Assembly: GCA_021845925.1 (NCBI GenBank)
Contig: JAJZUW010000007.1
Coordinates: 62,001 to 126,000 of the forward strand
Origin: Pseudomonadota bacterium
GTDB taxonomy: Bacteria > Pseudomonadota > Gammaproteobacteria > Burkholderiales > Sulfuriferulaceae
Direction of reading: 5' to 3'
DNA length: 64,000 nucleotides
In this document: in pieces, positions 1-6,812 of the stretch
Position numbering within the stretch: the stretch's first letter is position 1
Layout of the letters: every line of letters starts with the position of its first letter
Notes under the pieces: generated by a model
Told to the model about the DNA's origin: nothing
The model's input: the letters and a program-made list of their open reading frames with translations, nothing else
Databases searched by the model: none
Position numbers and translations under genes: made by a program

Positions 1-825
1 AATGGCGCTGGCATCGACCGGATAGCCGGCATGGACAAAATCTTCTGCCGCACGGATGGCGGGGTTGTCCATCATTTCCAGGCCGGCAGGAATGATGCCG
101 GCAGCAATGATCCGGCTAACCGCATCCGCAGCCTGGTGAGTGCTGTTGAACGCAGCCATCACCAGTCGGGTGTGCTCGGGCAGTGGCAGCAGGCGCAACG
201 TGACTTCGGTAACGATACCCAGCAATCCTTCCGAGCCGGTCAGCAGCGCAGTCAGGTCATAGCCTGCGCTGTCTGGTGATGTACCACCGAGGGTGAGAAT
301 CTCACCATCCATGCACACCAGGCGCAGGGACTGGATGTTGTGCACGGTAAGTCCGTACTTGAGACAATGCACCCCACCGGAGTTTTCTGCGACATTGCCG
401 CCAATGGTGCAGGCAATCTGTGATGATGGGTCCGGCGCATAGTACAGGCCCCATGGGCGAGCGGCCTGCGATACGGACAGATTGCGCACACCCGGTTGCA
501 CGCGTGCCGTACGCAGCAATGGGTTGAGTTCAAGGATGGATTTCATGCGTGCCAGACTCAGCACAATGCCCTGTTCATGCGGCAGGGCGCCTCCCGACAG
601 TCCAGTGCCCGCGCCACGTGGTACAACCGGAATGCCATGCCGCAGACAAAGCCGCAGCACCGCCTGTACTTCGGATTCTGCTGTTGGCAGCACCACGGCC
701 AGCGGAACCCGCTTCATGGCGGACAGCCCGTCACATTCCCAGGCAGGCAGCGTGGATTGCCGGCTGACAATGGCGTCCGCCGGCAACAGTTCGCGCAATT
801 CGGCCAGAAAGCTTGCTGGATTCAT
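1..825 (-). CDS. glcD: GlcD-type FAD-linked oxidase (partial, 3' end outside window)
   Basis: An open frame runs from an ATG at 825 leftward off the edge without a stop (275 codons seen). The translation has the FAD-binding type 4 (VAO/PCMH) signature: a PRGAGTGLSGG loop near residues 69-79 and GGNVAENSGG near 142-151, as in the GlcD subunit of glycolate oxidase and related D-2-hydroxyacid dehydrogenases. Family members oxidise a 2-hydroxyacid to the 2-oxoacid and pass electrons on through GlcE/GlcF-type partners. Its start overlaps the stop of the upstream DUF1537 kinase gene by 4 nt (ATGA), so it belongs to that operon. The substrate may be the acid sugar handled by that operon rather than glycolate; partner subunits would lie outside the window. 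Confidence 0.85.
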   Translation of the reverse strand, partial: MNPASFLAELRELLPADAIVSRQSTLPAWECDGLSAMKRVPLAVVLPTAESEVQAVLRLCLRHGIPVVPRGAGTGLSGGALPHEQGIVLSLARMKSILELNPLLRTARVQPGVRNLSVSQAARPWGLYYAPDPSSQIACTIGGNVAENSGGVHCLKYGLTVHNIQSLRLVCMDGEILTLGGTSPDSAGYDLTALLTGSEGLLGIVTEVTLRLLPLPEHTRLVMAAFNSTHQAADAVSRIIAAGIIPAGLEMMDNPAIRAAEDFVHAGYPVDASAI

Positions 826-2150
826 GTTGCGGACAGGCGTTGCCATACGGTGACCAGGGCATTGGCATCACCGACATTGCCGGGAAAAATCACCACCGGC
901 AGTCCCGGATAACGTGGATGGTCGTCCGGGCAGCGCACCACCGAACAGCCAGCCAGAATCTGGCCGACTACCCGTGAGGCAGCAAGCGCGAGCCCGTCGC
1001 TCAGCACGTCGTTGGATGTGATGCCGCCCTTGCTGACCAGATAGCCAATGTCGGATGGCAATCCGCGTACGATATCCATCAGCAGCGCCGATACCTGCTC
1101 GCCAAATGCCAGACGGGTGGACTGGTCGGCAAAGGTTTTTTCCGTGCGGCTGGTATAAATGACCGGCGATTTGCCCAGATCATATGCCTGCTGTGCCAGG
1201 GTGAGCACCTCGACCAGCAGGTGGTCACGGTCATCGGCAATCCGGTTGACATCCACCATGATGCCGGTGACGCCAGGCTCGCGCAGCAGGGATTCCAGTT
1301 GTCGGGTGGTGGTTGGTACATGAGAACCCACGATGACGGCGCCCGGTTTGTTGCCGCGAACAAACCGGTGCATGTCGGCGGCTGCAACCGGCTGGGGCGG
1401 CAAATCGGCCAGAGCCGTGAGCAGACTGGCAGCGCTGCGGAACAGCAAGCGTTTGCCTTGTGCAACGGCGGCGCGAACATGCGCGGCAAAACGTTGCAGG
1501 TCGTCCGCCGATTCGGCATCCACCACCACACAGGCGTAATCGTGCAGGTCGGCCAGCGGTTGCCCGGCCGGCGCAAGCAGACTCTGGCGATCGAGGTGGC
1601 GCACATCGCTGGCGCGTATCCGGCCAGCGGTCTTTTCTTCCACATACGCCGGCAGATAGCTGTTCTGGTAGCCAAATACCGAATCGCGCGCGAATTCGGT
1701 CTGGTGCACTGGTACCGGTTCGCCATTCACCATCAGATAATGGGTGCCGCTGCGGGTGATGCGGCCACCTTCGAAAAAGGCCGGTACCAGAAAGTGGGCA
1801 TCAAACGGGCCGAGTTCCGCGTTGATGATATCGGTTTCCACCGGATAATGGCCGCGCAGCGTTGAATCCGAACGGCTGACCACCACCGGCAGGAGTGCGT
1901 CGCCAGCGGCCTGCAGTTCATCGAGCGCCTGGCGCAGGTTGCGGCAAACGGTGCGTGTGACATCCGCTGCCCGTGCTGCCGACATGCCCCGTGTGTTGGT
2001 CAGGACAAAGAACAGGGGCGAAGCATCGGTCAACCCCTGCTTGAGGGTGGCGACATCCCATCGGGTCAGCAGCAGGCAGCCGTGCACCGTTTGCGAACCG
2101 GTCGGGTCGTCATCCAGAACGATGATCTTGCTGCGCATGCTCTGGTTCAT
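822..2150 (-). CDS. four-carbon acid sugar kinase family protein (DUF1537)
   Basis: This 442-aa protein begins with the nucleotide/substrate signature DDDPTGSQT near residues 13-21 and has the SRSDSTLRGHYP segment near residues 93-104, both typical of the DUF1537 (OtnK/DtnK/LtnK) kinases. Characterised members phosphorylate the terminal hydroxyl of erythronate, threonate or 2-oxo-tetronate. Length matches the family. The start overlaps the stop of the upstream phosphoketolase-like gene by 4 nt and its own stop overlaps the glcD start, so translation is probably coupled. The usual partners (PdxA2-type dehydrogenase, class II aldolase, OtnI isomerase) are not seen next to it, so the exact substrate cannot be named. 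Family assignment is firm; function is inferred. Confidence 0.88.
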   Translation of the reverse strand: MNQSMRSKIIVLDDDPTGSQTVHGCLLLTRWDVATLKQGLTDASPLFFVLTNTRGMSAARAADVTRTVCRNLRQALDELQAAGDALLPVVVSRSDSTLRGHYPVETDIINAELGPFDAHFLVPAFFEGGRITRSGTHYLMVNGEPVPVHQTEFARDSVFGYQNSYLPAYVEEKTAGRIRASDVRHLDRQSLLAPAGQPLADLHDYACVVVDAESADDLQRFAAHVRAAVAQGKRLLFRSAASLLTALADLPPQPVAAADMHRFVRGNKPGAVIVGSHVPTTTRQLESLLREPGVTGIMVDVNRIADDRDHLLVEVLTLAQQAYDLGKSPVIYTSRTEKTFADQSTRLAFGEQVSALLMDIVRGLPSDIGYLVSKGGITSNDVLSDGLALAASRVVGQILAGCSVVRCPDDHPRYPGLPVVIFPGNVGDANALVTVWQRLSAT

Positions 2151-4351
2151 GACTGCTGTTCCGGCAACAGCTGACGGACTCGCGCGGCCATGGCATCTGC
2201 CGTCAGTCCGTTGAATGCCATCAGTTCGTCGGCCGATGCGGTGGTTTCACCACGCTTCCAGCAGAAGACGTCGCGCCGAGGCGCGCGGGTGCGCAGGAGT
2301 ACTGGCTCCAGTGGTGCGCTGGGCCCGCCGCTGACGCCAATCAATACATCGCCATCAAAGAGGGCATTGAAATCGCTGTCGGACATGAATTCGCCATCTG
2401 GCTGCGCCACGCTGTCCCACGCCACATCGCCTGCGCGATAGAGTTTGCGCGGATTGACGACCGACACCACGCGTACGGCATGTCCTTCGCTTTCCAGCTG
2501 GTGTGCTGCCTGCATGACTGGCAGCAATACCATGTCGCCGGTCACGGCAAACACAATGCGCCTGCCCTGGCCATCGTTGCCGGCATGCACCACGCCGGCG
2601 CCGGTGCGTACGGCAGTGCGTGCCTGGTCCGGGGTCATGTACACCGGCAGCGGGCTCTTGGAAGCCACAATCACCATACCCTTGTTGACGCTGTCCAAGG
2701 CATGGGCATAAGCCGCCTGAATGGCGTTCGCATCCGGTGGAAACAGCAGGTAGACGTTGCCGTTGCGCATCATGGCGCCAAAAAAGTTTTCGATTTCCGG
2801 CCGCTGGTGCGTCCAGCCATTGCGGCCCTGCTCCAGTGCGCCGGCAGTGAACATGCAAACCACTGCTGGTGTGCGACGGCGCAGTTCGGCCATGGCCTGC
2901 GTCACGGTCTGGATGATCGGCCAGCCGTTGATGGCAAACGATTCGTAGGACAGCCACAGTGACCGGCTGCCAAACAGTGCCAGGCCGGCGGCAAGCCCGG
3001 CACAGGCGTCTTCATTGAGCGGCTCGTAGACCTGACCACCGGGTTCCTGGTTGTACAGGGGGTCCGGAGTCGGGTGGCGGATCTTGAGCGCGTCGTTGAT
3101 GTTTTTCATGGCTGAGGCTTCGTTGCCGTCAGCGTTGGTGACCACAAAGCGCCGGTCGGCCAGGCCAACCTGTGCCACCATCGCGCCCATGGCAGTCGCC
3201 GGCACGGCCTTGTCGCCCACGTTGAAATTCTGCCATTCGAGAGCTGGCAATGGCGTGAGTGCCAGTTCCTGCTCGGTGACGGCGGTCTGGCAGGCCGGGC
3301 CGCCACCGGCACGCGACAGGTTGTCGCGCACGATGGCCCATGCCTGTTCGGGCAGTGCACGCTTCTGCAGGCTTTCGTAGATGTGCGGTTGGTCGAGGGT
3401 ATCCTTGGGATACAGGTTGTGCGATTTGGCACCGCTGGCGTGCACGCCAGCTCCCTTGAGTTGCTTGATGATGAAGGCGGTCAGTTTTCCGCCCAGGGCG
3501 CTTCGCGCGGCATGATCCACGCCAGCCAGTACCGCAGCGGTGAATTTGAGTCGCTGACCATGCGAAAACAGCGTGCTGTCGACATAGGCGCCAGACTGAC
3601 CGGCGTCGTCAAATTCTTTCGCATCGACCAGAATGACGTCTTCGAAGCCATGACCACGCCAGTAATCGACCATTGCCTGGTTGTCAAACAGGGATACCAT
3701 GGAGTGGTGTTCCTGCGAGTAGCCGTTCCACACCAGTACCGGCAGGAAATTGGTGATTTCCGGATAGGCAGTATGGAAGTGCATCATGCTGTTGAGAACG
3801 TAGGGCTCGCCCATGCCGCCGTCGCCAATCGTCACCGGGAACAGCTTGCCGGGGTGAAGCAGTGCGCCGGCCATGGCGAAATGCTGGCCCTGGCCCAGAG
3901 GGCCGGCGGGTGCCAGCAGGCCGGGAATGGCGCCGGAAAGATGGCCGAGCAGACCGTGACGTTCGCGAAAACGCGTCATCATGTCATCCATGTTGTGGAT
4001 GCCCATCTCCGTCAGGGAACCATCCAGGAACATGGCGGAGTAAAACCCGGGAGCATGGTGCCCCACTTCGGTGACAATGTTGGTATGGCCCAGCATCATC
4101 AGCGAAGCGTGTGCTTCTGCGCTGGATGCAAAACCGCCCGGGTGGCCGGAACCCTTGGAGCCGGTCACCTGCAGTGTGACATAGCGCAGCGCATCGGCTG
4201 CAAGCAGGGTTTGGTACACGGCGCGCGGGTCCTGGCTGTCGGCGATTGCCGACTGGCCTTCGCCGATAACGGGACTGGCTGCCATGGAATCGAATTGCGG
4301 CCACGGCTGGCCAAATGACAGGATACCTTTGCAGAAGGCGGGGGCGCTCAT
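2147..4351 (-). CDS. phosphoketolase/transketolase-like ThDP-dependent enzyme
   Basis: 734 aa, first gene of the operon, with a good ribosome site (AAGGAG) before the ATG at 4351. The N-terminal half carries a transketolase-like SGHPGG near residues 68-73 and a ThDP/Mg motif GDGG with a following N about 25-30 residues on (near 197-230), in the context ITNFLPVLVWNGYS, which resembles phosphoketolase. The middle (YNQEPGGQVYEPLNED, WLSYESFAING, NGWTHQRPEIENF, LFPPDANAIQAA) also aligns by eye with the phosphoketolase XFP family, but the protein is shorter than the usual 790-800 aa. Some database entries call such proteins xylulose 5-phosphate 3-epimerase. The real reaction is not obvious. Co-transcription with a DUF1537 kinase and GlcD suggests sugar-acid breakdown. 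Confidence 0.75.
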   Translation of the reverse strand: MSAPAFCKGILSFGQPWPQFDSMAASPVIGEGQSAIADSQDPRAVYQTLLAADALRYVTLQVTGSKGSGHPGGFASSAEAHASLMMLGHTNIVTEVGHHAPGFYSAMFLDGSLTEMGIHNMDDMMTRFRERHGLLGHLSGAIPGLLAPAGPLGQGQHFAMAGALLHPGKLFPVTIGDGGMGEPYVLNSMMHFHTAYPEITNFLPVLVWNGYSQEHHSMVSLFDNQAMVDYWRGHGFEDVILVDAKEFDDAGQSGAYVDSTLFSHGQRLKFTAAVLAGVDHAARSALGGKLTAFIIKQLKGAGVHASGAKSHNLYPKDTLDQPHIYESLQKRALPEQAWAIVRDNLSRAGGGPACQTAVTEQELALTPLPALEWQNFNVGDKAVPATAMGAMVAQVGLADRRFVVTNADGNEASAMKNINDALKIRHPTPDPLYNQEPGGQVYEPLNEDACAGLAAGLALFGSRSLWLSYESFAINGWPIIQTVTQAMAELRRRTPAVVCMFTAGALEQGRNGWTHQRPEIENFFGAMMRNGNVYLLFPPDANAIQAAYAHALDSVNKGMVIVASKSPLPVYMTPDQARTAVRTGAGVVHAGNDGQGRRIVFAVTGDMVLLPVMQAAHQLESEGHAVRVVSVVNPRKLYRAGDVAWDSVAQPDGEFMSDSDFNALFDGDVLIGVSGGPSAPLEPVLLRTRAPRRDVFCWKRGETTASADELMAFNGLTADAMAARVRQLLPEQQS

Positions 4352-4422
4352 GGATGCTCCTTGGCAATCGGTTGGTTGATGGGATTACCTTAGCAAATTT
4401 GTCTTCTTTTCGCAATACAAAA

Positions 4423-4451
4423 TTTGATTTCACGATATGAAATGATATACT
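4423..4451 (+). promoter_or_regulatory. iclR promoter with overlapping 17-bp palindromic operator
   Basis: A -35-like TTTGAT (4423-4428) and a -10 TATACT (4446-4451) are 17 bp apart. Between and over them lies a perfect inverted repeat ATTTCA-CGATA-TGAAAT (4427-4443), the size and symmetry of IclR-family operators. The region sits in the only intergenic gap between iclR and the divergent minus-strand operon, so it probably serves both. Transcription from this -10 would begin almost at the iclR ATG at 4459. Confidence 0.55.
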
Positions 4452-4458
4452 GCCCGGC

Positions 4459-5199
4459 ATGAACGATACATCTTCCATTCAGGTTATTGATCGCATGGTG
4501 GCAGTGCTGGATGCGCTGGCCAGCGTTGACAAGGCTTCGCTGAAGCAGCTGGCCGGCATGACCGGCCTGCATCCGTCGACCGCACACCGCATCCTGGCGG
4601 CAGTGGCGGCGCACGGATGGGTCGTCCGCAGTGCGGACGGCGGTTACCAGCTTGGCAGCGGGCTGTCCCGCTATGCCAGACGAACCGATCAGCAGGATCG
4701 CCTGCGTCAGCTGGCTTTGCCGTTGATGGCCGCCCTGCGCGACCAGACCGGAGAAACCGTCAACCTGGTGATGCGTGACGGCGACGAAGTGGTGTACACC
4801 GAACGGGCGGTCTCGCGCCAGATGATGCGCGTGGAGCAGATGATCGGCTCCCGTGCGCCGTTGCATGTCACGGCGGTCGGCAAGCTCATGCTGGCTGACG
4901 CCGGACGGGAAGCCTGCATGGCTTATGCCGAGCGGACCGGCCTGCCTGGATTTACCGTTCATACGCTCACGTCTCCGACCTTGCTCTGGCAGGATGCCAG
5001 CCGGGCGCTGGTGCGAGGATATGCTTTTGACAACGAGGAAGCGGAATCCGGAATCGGCTGTATTGCTGTGCTGGTGCGTGACAGCGAAGGACGGGTTCTG
5101 GCTGGTTTGTCAATTTCCGCACCACGGGAAAGGCGCCGTGACGAATGGGCAGGCAATCTGCTGGAAGTGGCGGGCAGGTTGTCCGGTCAGATGGGATGA
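4459..5199 (+). CDS. IclR-family transcriptional regulator
   Basis: 246 aa. Residues 7-65 form the winged helix-turn-helix (IQVIDRMVAVLDALA, then LKQLAGMTGLHPSTAHRIL as recognition region), followed by the IclR effector domain with the typical GSRAPLHVTAVGKLMLA near residues 128-145 and a late AFDNEEAESGIGCIAV. The start at 4459 gives the family's usual N terminus. No Shine-Dalgarno sequence is visible and the -10 box ends only 7 bp upstream, so the mRNA may be leaderless. It is divergent from the ThDP/DUF1537/GlcD operon and most likely controls that operon in response to a sugar acid or its breakdown product. The effector is unknown. Confidence 0.9.
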   Translation: MNDTSSIQVIDRMVAVLDALASVDKASLKQLAGMTGLHPSTAHRILAAVAAHGWVVRSADGGYQLGSGLSRYARRTDQQDRLRQLALPLMAALRDQTGETVNLVMRDGDEVVYTERAVSRQMMRVEQMIGSRAPLHVTAVGKLMLADAGREACMAYAERTGLPGFTVHTLTSPTLLWQDASRALVRGYAFDNEEAESGIGCIAVLVRDSEGRVLAGLSISAPRERRRDEWAGNLLEVAGRLSGQMG

Positions 5200-5207
5200 T
5201 TGGTATG

Positions 5208-5337
5208 ATGCCTGCGCCTGACGTCGCGGTTTTTATGCCTGCGCCTGACGTCGCGGTTTTTATGCCTGCGCCTGACGTCGCTGTTTTTTATGCCTGCGCC
5301 TGACGTCGCTGCTTTTTATGCCTGCGCCTGACGTCGC
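5208..5337. repeat. tandem repeat made of copies of the comM 3' end
   Basis: Five copies of the 20-bp core ATGCCTGCGCCTGACGTCGC start at 5208, 5235, 5262, 5290 and 5318, each of the first four followed by a 7-8-bp T-rich spacer (GGTTTTT, GGTTTTT, TGTTTTTT, TGCTTTTT). The last copy is the actual 3' end of comM: with the preceding TT it encodes the final residues and the TAA stop. The array fills the space between the convergent ends of iclR and comM. It looks like local slippage duplication of the gene end; the T-runs might affect transcription termination. Confidence 0.9.
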
Positions 5338-6812
5338 AGGTGAACCGCCTCGGCCATGTGCTGTCGGGTAATGCAGTCGCTGCCAGCCAGATCGGCAATG
5401 CTGCGGGCCACGCGTAAACTGCGGTGCCAGGCGCGGGCAGACAGGTTCAGCTGGCGGATAGCCCGGGATAACAGCTCAAGGGCGGCAGGGGCGGCATGGG
5501 CGTGGGTGTCGATTTCACCGCTGCTCAGCAGGTTGTTCGGTTTGCCCTGGCGGTGCAACTGCTGCAGGCGGGCATCATTGACCCGCATGCGGATGCTGGC
5601 GCTGGCTTCGCCGGTGGGCGCGGCCAGCAGGTCATCCGGATCGATGGCCGGCACATCGATCTGCAGGTCGATCCGGTCCAGAAACGGTCCGGACAGTTTG
5701 CTGCGATAGCGTTCAATCCGGTCCGGCGTGCAGCGGCAGCGTCCGGTCTTGTCGCCCAGATATCCGCACGGGCAGGGGTTCATGGCCGCCACCAGCTGAA
5801 AGCGGGCTGGAAATTCAGCCTGTTGCGCTGCACGCGAAATGCAGATATGGCCGGTTTCGAGCGGCTCGCGCAGCACTTCAATCACGTGTCGGGCAAACTC
5901 CGGTAATTCATCCAGGAACAGGATACCCTGGTGGGCCAGGGAAATTTCGCCTGGGCGCGGGTTGGTGCCACCCCCGACCAGCGCCACCGCCGATGCCGTG
6001 TGATGTGGATTGCGGTATGGGCGGCTTTTCCAGGATTGCGGATCAAAATGACCAGCCAGCGAAAGAATGGCGGCACTTTCCAGTGCCTCGCTATCGGTCA
6101 TGGGTGGCAGGATGCCGACCAGCCGCTCGGCCAGCATGGATTTTCCACTGCCGGGCGGGCCGGACATCAGCAGGGAATGGCCGCCGGCAGCCGCGATTTC
6201 AAGCGCCCGTCGGGCAGCGTGTTGTCCGCGCACATCGGCTAGATCGGGTCGCGCGATCGCCGACTTGCATGTATCTGCAAGTAACGGTGTCTGTAGCAGG
6301 CACTGGTCGTTGAGATGTGCGCAGACCTCCAGCAGGGAGCTGGCGGCCAGAACTCGCCCCGGTGCGGCAAGCACCGCTTCTGCAGCGCTCCGGACTGGCA
6401 GAATGAACTGGCGGGTGCTGGTGGCCGAACCGATCAGCATGGCCATGGCTCCGCGAACCGGACGCAGTTCACCGGTCAGGGCCAGTTCGCCAGCAAATTC
6501 ATGATTGGCCAGCAGTCGGTCCGCAATCTGACCGGAAGCGGCCAGAATGCCCAGGGCAATCGGCAGATCATATCGGCCAGATTCCTTGGGCAGGTCGGCA
6601 GGTGCAAGGTTGACGGTAATCCGGCTGACCGGAAATTCAAAACGGGAATTCTGGATGGCGGCACGAACCCGGTCTCGCGACTCGCGGACTTCCGCTTCCG
6701 GTAGCCCAACCACGGTAAAGGAGGGCAATCCGTTACCCAGATGCGCTTCCACGACCACCTCCGGCGCATGCACCCCGGCCAGGGCGCGGCTGCGCACGAT
6801 GGCGACCGCCAT
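5316..6812 (-). CDS. comM: ComM/YifB-family Mg-chelatase-like AAA ATPase
   Basis: 498 aa from the ATG at 6812, the start that gives the family's MAVAIVRSRALAG N terminus; a longer in-frame reading from 6935 has no family-like sequence. The N-terminal ChlI domain (residues 1-~170) is followed by the ATPase with Walker A GPPGSGKS (~218-225), Walker B ILFLDELPEF and the zinc-like CPCGYLGDKTGRCRC segment, then a C-terminal Mg-chelatase domain. Known role: hexameric helicase promoting branch migration during integration of transformed DNA. It starts 2 bp after the ubiK stop, so both are likely cotranscribed. Its last 20 bp are repeated downstream. Confidence 0.93.
   Translation of the reverse strand: MAVAIVRSRALAGVHAPEVVVEAHLGNGLPSFTVVGLPEAEVRESRDRVRAAIQNSRFEFPVSRITVNLAPADLPKESGRYDLPIALGILAASGQIADRLLANHEFAGELALTGELRPVRGAMAMLIGSATSTRQFILPVRSAAEAVLAAPGRVLAASSLLEVCAHLNDQCLLQTPLLADTCKSAIARPDLADVRGQHAARRALEIAAAGGHSLLMSGPPGSGKSMLAERLVGILPPMTDSEALESAAILSLAGHFDPQSWKSRPYRNPHHTASAVALVGGGTNPRPGEISLAHQGILFLDELPEFARHVIEVLREPLETGHICISRAAQQAEFPARFQLVAAMNPCPCGYLGDKTGRCRCTPDRIERYRSKLSGPFLDRIDLQIDVPAIDPDDLLAAPTGEASASIRMRVNDARLQQLHRQGKPNNLLSSGEIDTHAHAAPAALELLSRAIRQLNLSARAWHRSLRVARSIADLAGSDCITRQHMAEAVHLRRQAQA

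Follow-up and report, generated by a model that had tools for sequence, protein, structure and literature searches.

What does a ThDP-dependent enzyme of the transketolase/phosphoketolase superfamily do in an operon that it shares with a DUF1537 kinase and glycolate oxidase? The question arises at the very start of the window, i.e., the whole stretch of 64,000 nucleotides analysed here, where ORF calls confirm an iclR gene divergent from a minus-strand tdp-kin-glcD run. The answer put forward below is that this gene set, common to many CO2-fixing bacteria, looks like an undescribed means of recovering the two-carbon waste of Rubisco oxygenation. Its central pair, tdp and kin, is also present in most cyanobacteria.

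The operon and its regulator

The first gene, tdp (2147..4351, minus strand), encodes a 734-aa protein (TDP) placed in a separate conserved branch of the superfamily from its ORF, its XFP domains in Pfam, NCBIfam and a structure model. Next comes kin (822..2150, minus strand), recognized from its ORF and the Pfam domains SBD_N and NBD_C, whose 442-aa product (KIN) belongs to the DUF1537 (four-carbon acid sugar kinase) family. The third gene, glcD (1..825, minus strand), codes for the FAD subunit of glycolate oxidase according to Pfam (FAD_binding_4) and NCBIfam, and runs off the window start, with the first 275 of its 491 aa inside. The tdp/kin and kin/glcD junctions are both ATGA overlaps (..CAGTCATGAACC.. 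and ..GCAACATGAATCC..). An earlier note had described three ATGA-joined genes, a divergent iclR and a palindrome, all confirmed here by ORFs, Pfam and the junction sequences. The three genes that it placed in 822-4451 are real, but the set is incomplete, as it stops at glcD: the remainder of this gene, then glcE and glcF, follow to the left of the window (G000:C3:59107-61548, G000 being the window genome). The last two are NCBIfam equivalogs on the minus strand (L063:14322-15548 for glcE and L063:13107-14318 for glcF), and the full operon in the genome reads tdp-kin-glcD-glcE-glcF, with iclR divergent. GlcE and GlcF pass their equivalog cut-offs (443.2 vs 284 and 595.6 vs 333). GlcD scores just under its own (543.1 vs 567.9; 775.2 vs 897), and the operon context supports its assignment. 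Since glcE and glcF continue the operon beyond the window, a complete glycolate oxidase is encoded.

The IclR-family regulator (4459..5199, plus strand), identified by Pfam and NCBIfam, has BhcR as its best NCBIfam match, under the equivalog cut-off (159.7 vs 350). A 17-bp palindrome at 4427..4443, ATTTCA-CGATA-TGAAAT (ATTTCACGATATGAAAT; no strand assigned), overlaps a promoter-like site of iclR. It is a predicted operator kept in homologous intergenic regions: of the 44 homologous iclR-tdp spacers, 25 contain the core TTTCA-N5-TGAAA, where shuffles expect 0.025. The regulator is probably a repressor that keeps the operon off in the absence of glyoxylate and glycolate. The coupling of a ThDP enzyme with a DUF1537 kinase under an IclR regulator, as claimed in the earlier note, extends to the homologues: each of the 44 proteobacterial loci whose sequence continues past tdp has kin as the next gene, and a divergent iclR stands on the opposite side in 44 of the 47 loci with sequence there. 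A likeness to the BhcR-regulated beta-hydroxyaspartate cycle is reinforced in some loci by a BhcA-like class V aminotransferase near tdp-kin (L012, L037, L052, L058 and L124). These matches nevertheless lie below the equivalog cut-offs, and the remaining enzymes of that cycle are absent among the identified neighbours. Immediately past iclR, a 28-bp tandem repeat (4.9 copies of the unit ATGCCTGCGCCTGACGTCGCTGGTTTTT, window 5208-5341) extends into the 3' end of the adjoining ComM/YifB-like gene.

The ThDP enzyme and its kinase partner

The NCBIfam cut-offs place TDP outside both the phosphoketolases and the transketolases, and it is best described as a third branch. It reaches 117.7 bits with the best phosphoketolase model (962 required under the PRK05261 cut-offs) and 48.2 bits with the best transketolase model (488 required). 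The Pfam gathering scores of XFP_N, XFP and XFP_C are barely passed (38.5, 50.6 and 29.5 vs 23.7, 22 and 23.4), where the genome's own XFP attains 606, 304 and 335 bits. This separate full-length phosphoketolase of 786 aa (L064:8144-10504, on G000:C13) is about 22% identical to TDP, and its existence agrees with the earlier view of TDP as something other than an ordinary phosphoketolase. Across phyla, members of the TDP branch are 63-78% identical.

Enzymes of the transketolase branch of ThDP enzymes move C2 units from a ketose to an aldehyde. The AlphaFold2 model of TDP (mean pLDDT 84.5, pTM 0.87, with several active-site loops at low confidence) finds its best structural matches among phosphoketolases (TM 0.74-0.78, 16-19% identity), followed by transketolases. 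With XFP it has the fold, the ThDP site and most of the catalytic residues in common. The ThDP/Mg and catalytic residues H70, H98, H137, H311, E447, Y469 and H515 are kept in 37 of 37 aligned TDPs, as is K565 (XFP K605), and the positions aligned with XFP H64, H97, H142, H320, E479, Y501, Q546, N549, H553 and K605 are all invariant. Two differences from XFP are just as constant: His548 (Bifidobacterium numbering) is replaced by Arg510, and the Asp two positions past H553 by Arg517, each in 37/37. In addition, the Arg at XFP position 442 is absent from the TDP alignment. The published list of XFP substrate-pocket residues includes His548, and does not contain K605, R442 or D555 (PMC10547157). 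From the alignment, the machinery for handling C2 units is retained in TDP, in a pocket that has gained two invariant arginines, which may bind a carboxylate.

The phosphoketolase-like fold also invites another reading, in which TDP is a second phosphoketolase (PKET2/Xfp2) forming acetyl phosphate from Xu5P or F6P and phosphate, its link with KIN and GlcDEF being purely regulatory. The top fold and sequence matches of TDP are indeed phosphoketolases, and its likely homologue in Synechocystis, sll0529 (matched by locus tag only), is described as such (PMC7744508, PMC11257934, PMC9034593). A test of this match through the neighbourhood on the sll0528 side did not reveal a peptidase M50 gene among the neighbours checked. 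One of these papers, however, states that the activity of sll0529 still requires verification (PMC7744508), and a figure in another paper, which shows NdhR/CmpR regulation by 2-phosphoglycolate, labels the same gene as a putative transketolase whose function is unknown (PMC7281370). No assay of PKET2 was found in open-licence papers. An xfp1/xfp2 double deletion has been constructed (PMC9034593), which implies that both genes are dispensable in the conditions of that study. Since TDP stays so far below the phosphoketolase cut-off, carries Arg in place of H548 and coexists with a true XFP, and since its near-obligatory pairing with a sugar-acid kinase would be left unexplained, a second phosphoketolase is an unlikely identity.

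KIN itself is clearly above the Pfam gathering thresholds (189.9 bits for SBD_N and 134.3 for NBD_C). Its scores remain under the equivalog cut-offs of the characterized kinases (D-threonate kinase, 76.6 vs 450; OiaK, 32.5 vs 700), so that its substrate is not assignable from the models. Profile searching of solved structures retrieved 4xfm and 4xfr, and a single-sequence search gave no match. Two paralogues with 41-42% identity (G160:C30:116258-117556 and G277:C18:62979-64274) occur in one family that has no TDP.

Autotrophic hosts and neighbouring genes

A scan of species genomes returned 59 TDP loci, most of them 63-78% identical across most of the length. The hosts include Thiobacillus, Sideroxydans, Thiococcus, Thiothrix, Imhoffiella, Sedimenticola, Thiogranum and Hydrogenophilus, other Chromatiaceae and Gammaproteobacteria, as well as Planktothrix, Scytolyngbya and Synechococcus, and 48 of the 50 TDP-containing genomes encode the Rubisco large subunit. 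In an even sample of 321 genomes from the window's class, a KIN orthologue accompanies TDP in 29/29 genomes. Strictly defined Rubisco is found in 28 of these 29 and in 125 of the 292 lacking TDP (Fisher 4e-9); counting any PF00016 match raises the latter to 137 (Fisher 4e-8), the genomes spanning about 24 families and the Fisher values ignoring kinship. The only TDP genome without Rubisco (G082) is 86% complete. The module's membership in the glycolate/glyoxylate metabolism of autotrophs is well supported.

The surrounding genes point in the same direction, in that most of the recurrent neighbours are predicted to make or use glyoxylate or to handle DHAP. Of the 43 loci with enough flank (a set that may overlap in genomes with the 44 tdp-kin loci), 26 have a glcD gene no more than 5 kb downstream of kin, and 16 have no glc gene within the stretch examined. 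In one locus the next gene past kin, in the same orientation, encodes malate synthase (L115:7010-8608, G290), and malic enzyme is a neighbour in L053 and L112. A class II aldolase gene stands immediately past kin in L004, L036 and L117, in the last case as a gene of its own overlapping kin by ATGA. A KIN-aldolase fusion suggested there by a 707-aa ORF was rejected, the first part being out of frame over kin. In cyanobacteria, tdp-kin occurs near GlcE- or GlcF-like genes (L083, L089 and L093) and divergent from a class I aldolase (L088).

DUF1537 kinases are known from the catabolism of acid sugars (PMC12540250), and the operon could serve a four-carbon or similar acid sugar taken from outside, which GlcDEF or another enzyme would oxidize, KIN phosphorylate and TDP cleave. 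Cleavage of an outside acid sugar by the ThDP enzyme, as supposed in the earlier note, is unsupported, and this catabolic role is quite improbable: the hosts are autotrophs, nearly all cyanobacteria among them, GlcE and GlcF satisfy the glycolate oxidase cut-offs, and several neighbours use glyoxylate. The mismatch with the described threonate and erythronate pathways, which the note had also pointed out, does stand, since Pfam/NCBIfam identified no LtnD, OtnI or OtnC in the operon; PdxA2 is likewise absent among the identified neighbours of TDP loci. Solute-binding proteins (phosphonate-type, SBP_bac_11 and DctP) are encoded near a few TDP loci only (L053:8776-9711, L053:7356-8438 and L031:13938-15083), so that those few genomes may import a substrate. 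The Calvin-cycle and cyanobacterial hosts, the complete glycolate oxidase and the glyoxylate-using neighbours rather argue for an internal source, the phosphoglycolate of Rubisco, and the same host range and neighbours suggest that TDP builds a four-carbon acid out of glyoxylate before KIN acts.

Among 145 genomes of the Planktothrix class, 120 contain TDP and 142 KIN. The two genes are usually unlinked there, and adjoin in at least eight genomes (e.g., G416, G510, G387, G452 and G473). The cyanobacterial genomes with TDP have a full-length KIN that shares 54-65% identity with that of the window; in the 25 without TDP, KIN is mostly 38-56% identical or lacking altogether, G426 being the one clear exception. 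A loose threshold applied to 14 of the TDP-less genomes recovered at most true XFP or transketolase matches, and no TDP. Pairwise distances correlate between TDP and KIN (r = 0.82, 66 loci) and between TDP and GlcD (r = 0.66, 27 loci), shared species history contributing to both values. Four Planktothrix-type loci (L039, L040, L041 and L049) carry, upstream of tdp, a cytochrome P450 gene in divergent orientation.

Divergent KIN proteins without TDP are also seen in small cyanobacterial genomes of 1.6-2.9 Mb (L079, L081 and L082, in G459, G501 and G469), which indicates that KIN can have another role. Its neighbour is a GlcF-like gene in L081 and an FMN-dependent 2-hydroxyacid dehydrogenase in L082. 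Such contexts would suit a glyoxylate-linked housekeeping or damage-repair function, where KIN removes a toxic acid made from glyoxylate by ordinary transketolase and TDP plays some related minor part. The proteobacterial operon, with GlcDEF and a dedicated regulator, suggests instead a real flux pathway, and we consider repair a poor candidate, with little probability.

A possible route from glyoxylate to triose phosphates

A scheme of carboligation, phosphorylation and decarboxylation is, with moderate confidence, the best fit for the operon, its reactions and ligands being inferred. GlcDEF would oxidize glycolate, derived from the phosphoglycolate of Rubisco, to glyoxylate. TDP would then transfer the C2 unit of a ketose phosphate (Xu5P or F6P) to glyoxylate, yielding 3-oxotetronate (2,4-dihydroxy-3-oxobutanoate) and GAP or E4P, and KIN would phosphorylate 3-oxotetronate at its C4 hydroxyl. 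The resulting phosphorylated beta-keto acid would lose CO2 to give DHAP, either spontaneously or through the class II aldolase-like protein that some genomes encode beside KIN. The net reaction would be glyoxylate + Xu5P + ATP -> GAP + DHAP + CO2 + ADP. A decarboxylase gene is absent from most tdp-kin operons. Decarboxylation of 3-oxo-4-phosphotetronate proceeds via the DHAP enediolate, a species that class II aldolases stabilize, so the aldolase near KIN may be the decarboxylase; alternatively, it may join DHAP with GAP.

The last two steps have a precedent in L-threonate catabolism (LtnD, OtnI, OtnK and OtnC), where 3-OtnK, from one characterized branch of the DUF1537 kinases, forms 3-oxo-4-phosphotetronate, which is then decarboxylated to DHAP (PMC12540250). 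The difference lies in the origin of the 3-oxo acid, proposed here to come from carboligation and not from threonate, in an operon without LtnD, OtnI and OtnC. The proposed TDP step itself resembles the xylulose-monophosphate cycle of methylotrophic yeasts, in which a specialized transketolase transfers C2 from Xu5P onto a small toxic aldehyde. The three-carbon product of that cycle is phosphorylated to DHAP, and an aldolase unites DHAP with GAP. The transketolase concerned, dihydroxyacetone synthase (DAS), condenses Xu5P with formaldehyde (PMC8879981). In the present scheme, by contrast, the aldehyde would be glyoxylate and the product a four-carbon keto acid, with CO2 lost after phosphorylation by the DUF1537 kinase.

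The known ways of salvaging phosphoglycolate (C2 cycle, glycerate pathway, malate cycle and oxalate routes) share the oxidation of glycolate to glyoxylate by glycolate oxidase, and among chemolithoautotrophs the glycerate pathway and the malate cycle have been described in Cupriavidus (PMC7486775). The window genome has no match to glyoxylate carboligase (GCL), and malate synthase was not found in it; the glyoxylate step proposed here would be new. True GCL is found in none of the 29 TDP genomes, and is present in the relatives G156, G273 and G131, as expected if TDP were a GCL analogue converting two glyoxylates into tartronate semialdehyde and CO2, with KIN acting on the C3 product. However, true GCL occurs in only four of the 321 genomes, so that its absence tells little, and a depletion test for replacement was dropped for this rarity, most GCL matches being cross-matches of acetolactate synthase under the cut-off. 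Moreover, TDP sits in the C2-transfer branch and not in that of GCL and acetolactate synthase, none of the operon genes was identified as a tartronate semialdehyde reductase, and DUF1537 is not a glycerate kinase family, all of which makes a GCL analogue highly improbable.

Malate synthase is encoded in seven of the 29 TDP genomes, and its frequency among Rubisco-containing genomes is no different with and without TDP (7/28 vs 24/125, p = 0.6). A broad claim that the module replaces the known glyoxylate sinks is therefore unsupported; the lack of GCL and malate synthase counts for the window genome only. Glycine decarboxylase family proteins are matched in all 29 TDP genomes (weakly in G290), including the window genome, where transamination of glyoxylate to glycine is accordingly possible.

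The route proposed for TDP and KIN takes one glyoxylate at a time, without amino transfer or reduction. As glyoxylate and Xu5P give two triose phosphates and CO2, one carbon per glycolate is kept; this half is below the three quarters retained by the C2 or glycerate routes. Synechocystis mutants lacking the three known photorespiratory branches require high CO2, which means that a fourth route in this organism could not alone bear the full flux. It is conceivable, and we hold it tentatively, that C2-transfer assimilation of glyoxylate runs in most cyanobacteria and in many sulfur-, iron- or hydrogen-oxidizing or purple proteobacteria, and that this photorespiratory route has gone unnoticed because annotations present its key enzyme as a second phosphoketolase or a transketolase. 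The open-licence literature yielded nothing tying DUF1537 to glycolate in autotrophs, to photorespiration, or to phosphoketolase or Rubisco in such a system.

Rubisco oxygenation wastes fixed carbon, a central problem in photosynthesis research. If the scheme is true, nature would have a new salvage route that releases no ammonia, needs no reduction past glyoxylate and re-enters the Calvin cycle as triose phosphate. Flux models in which PKET2 figures as a phosphoketolase would change, and two widespread conserved proteins that have no assigned function, the cyanobacterial 'PKET2' and the cyanobacterial DUF1537 kinase, would gain a testable role.
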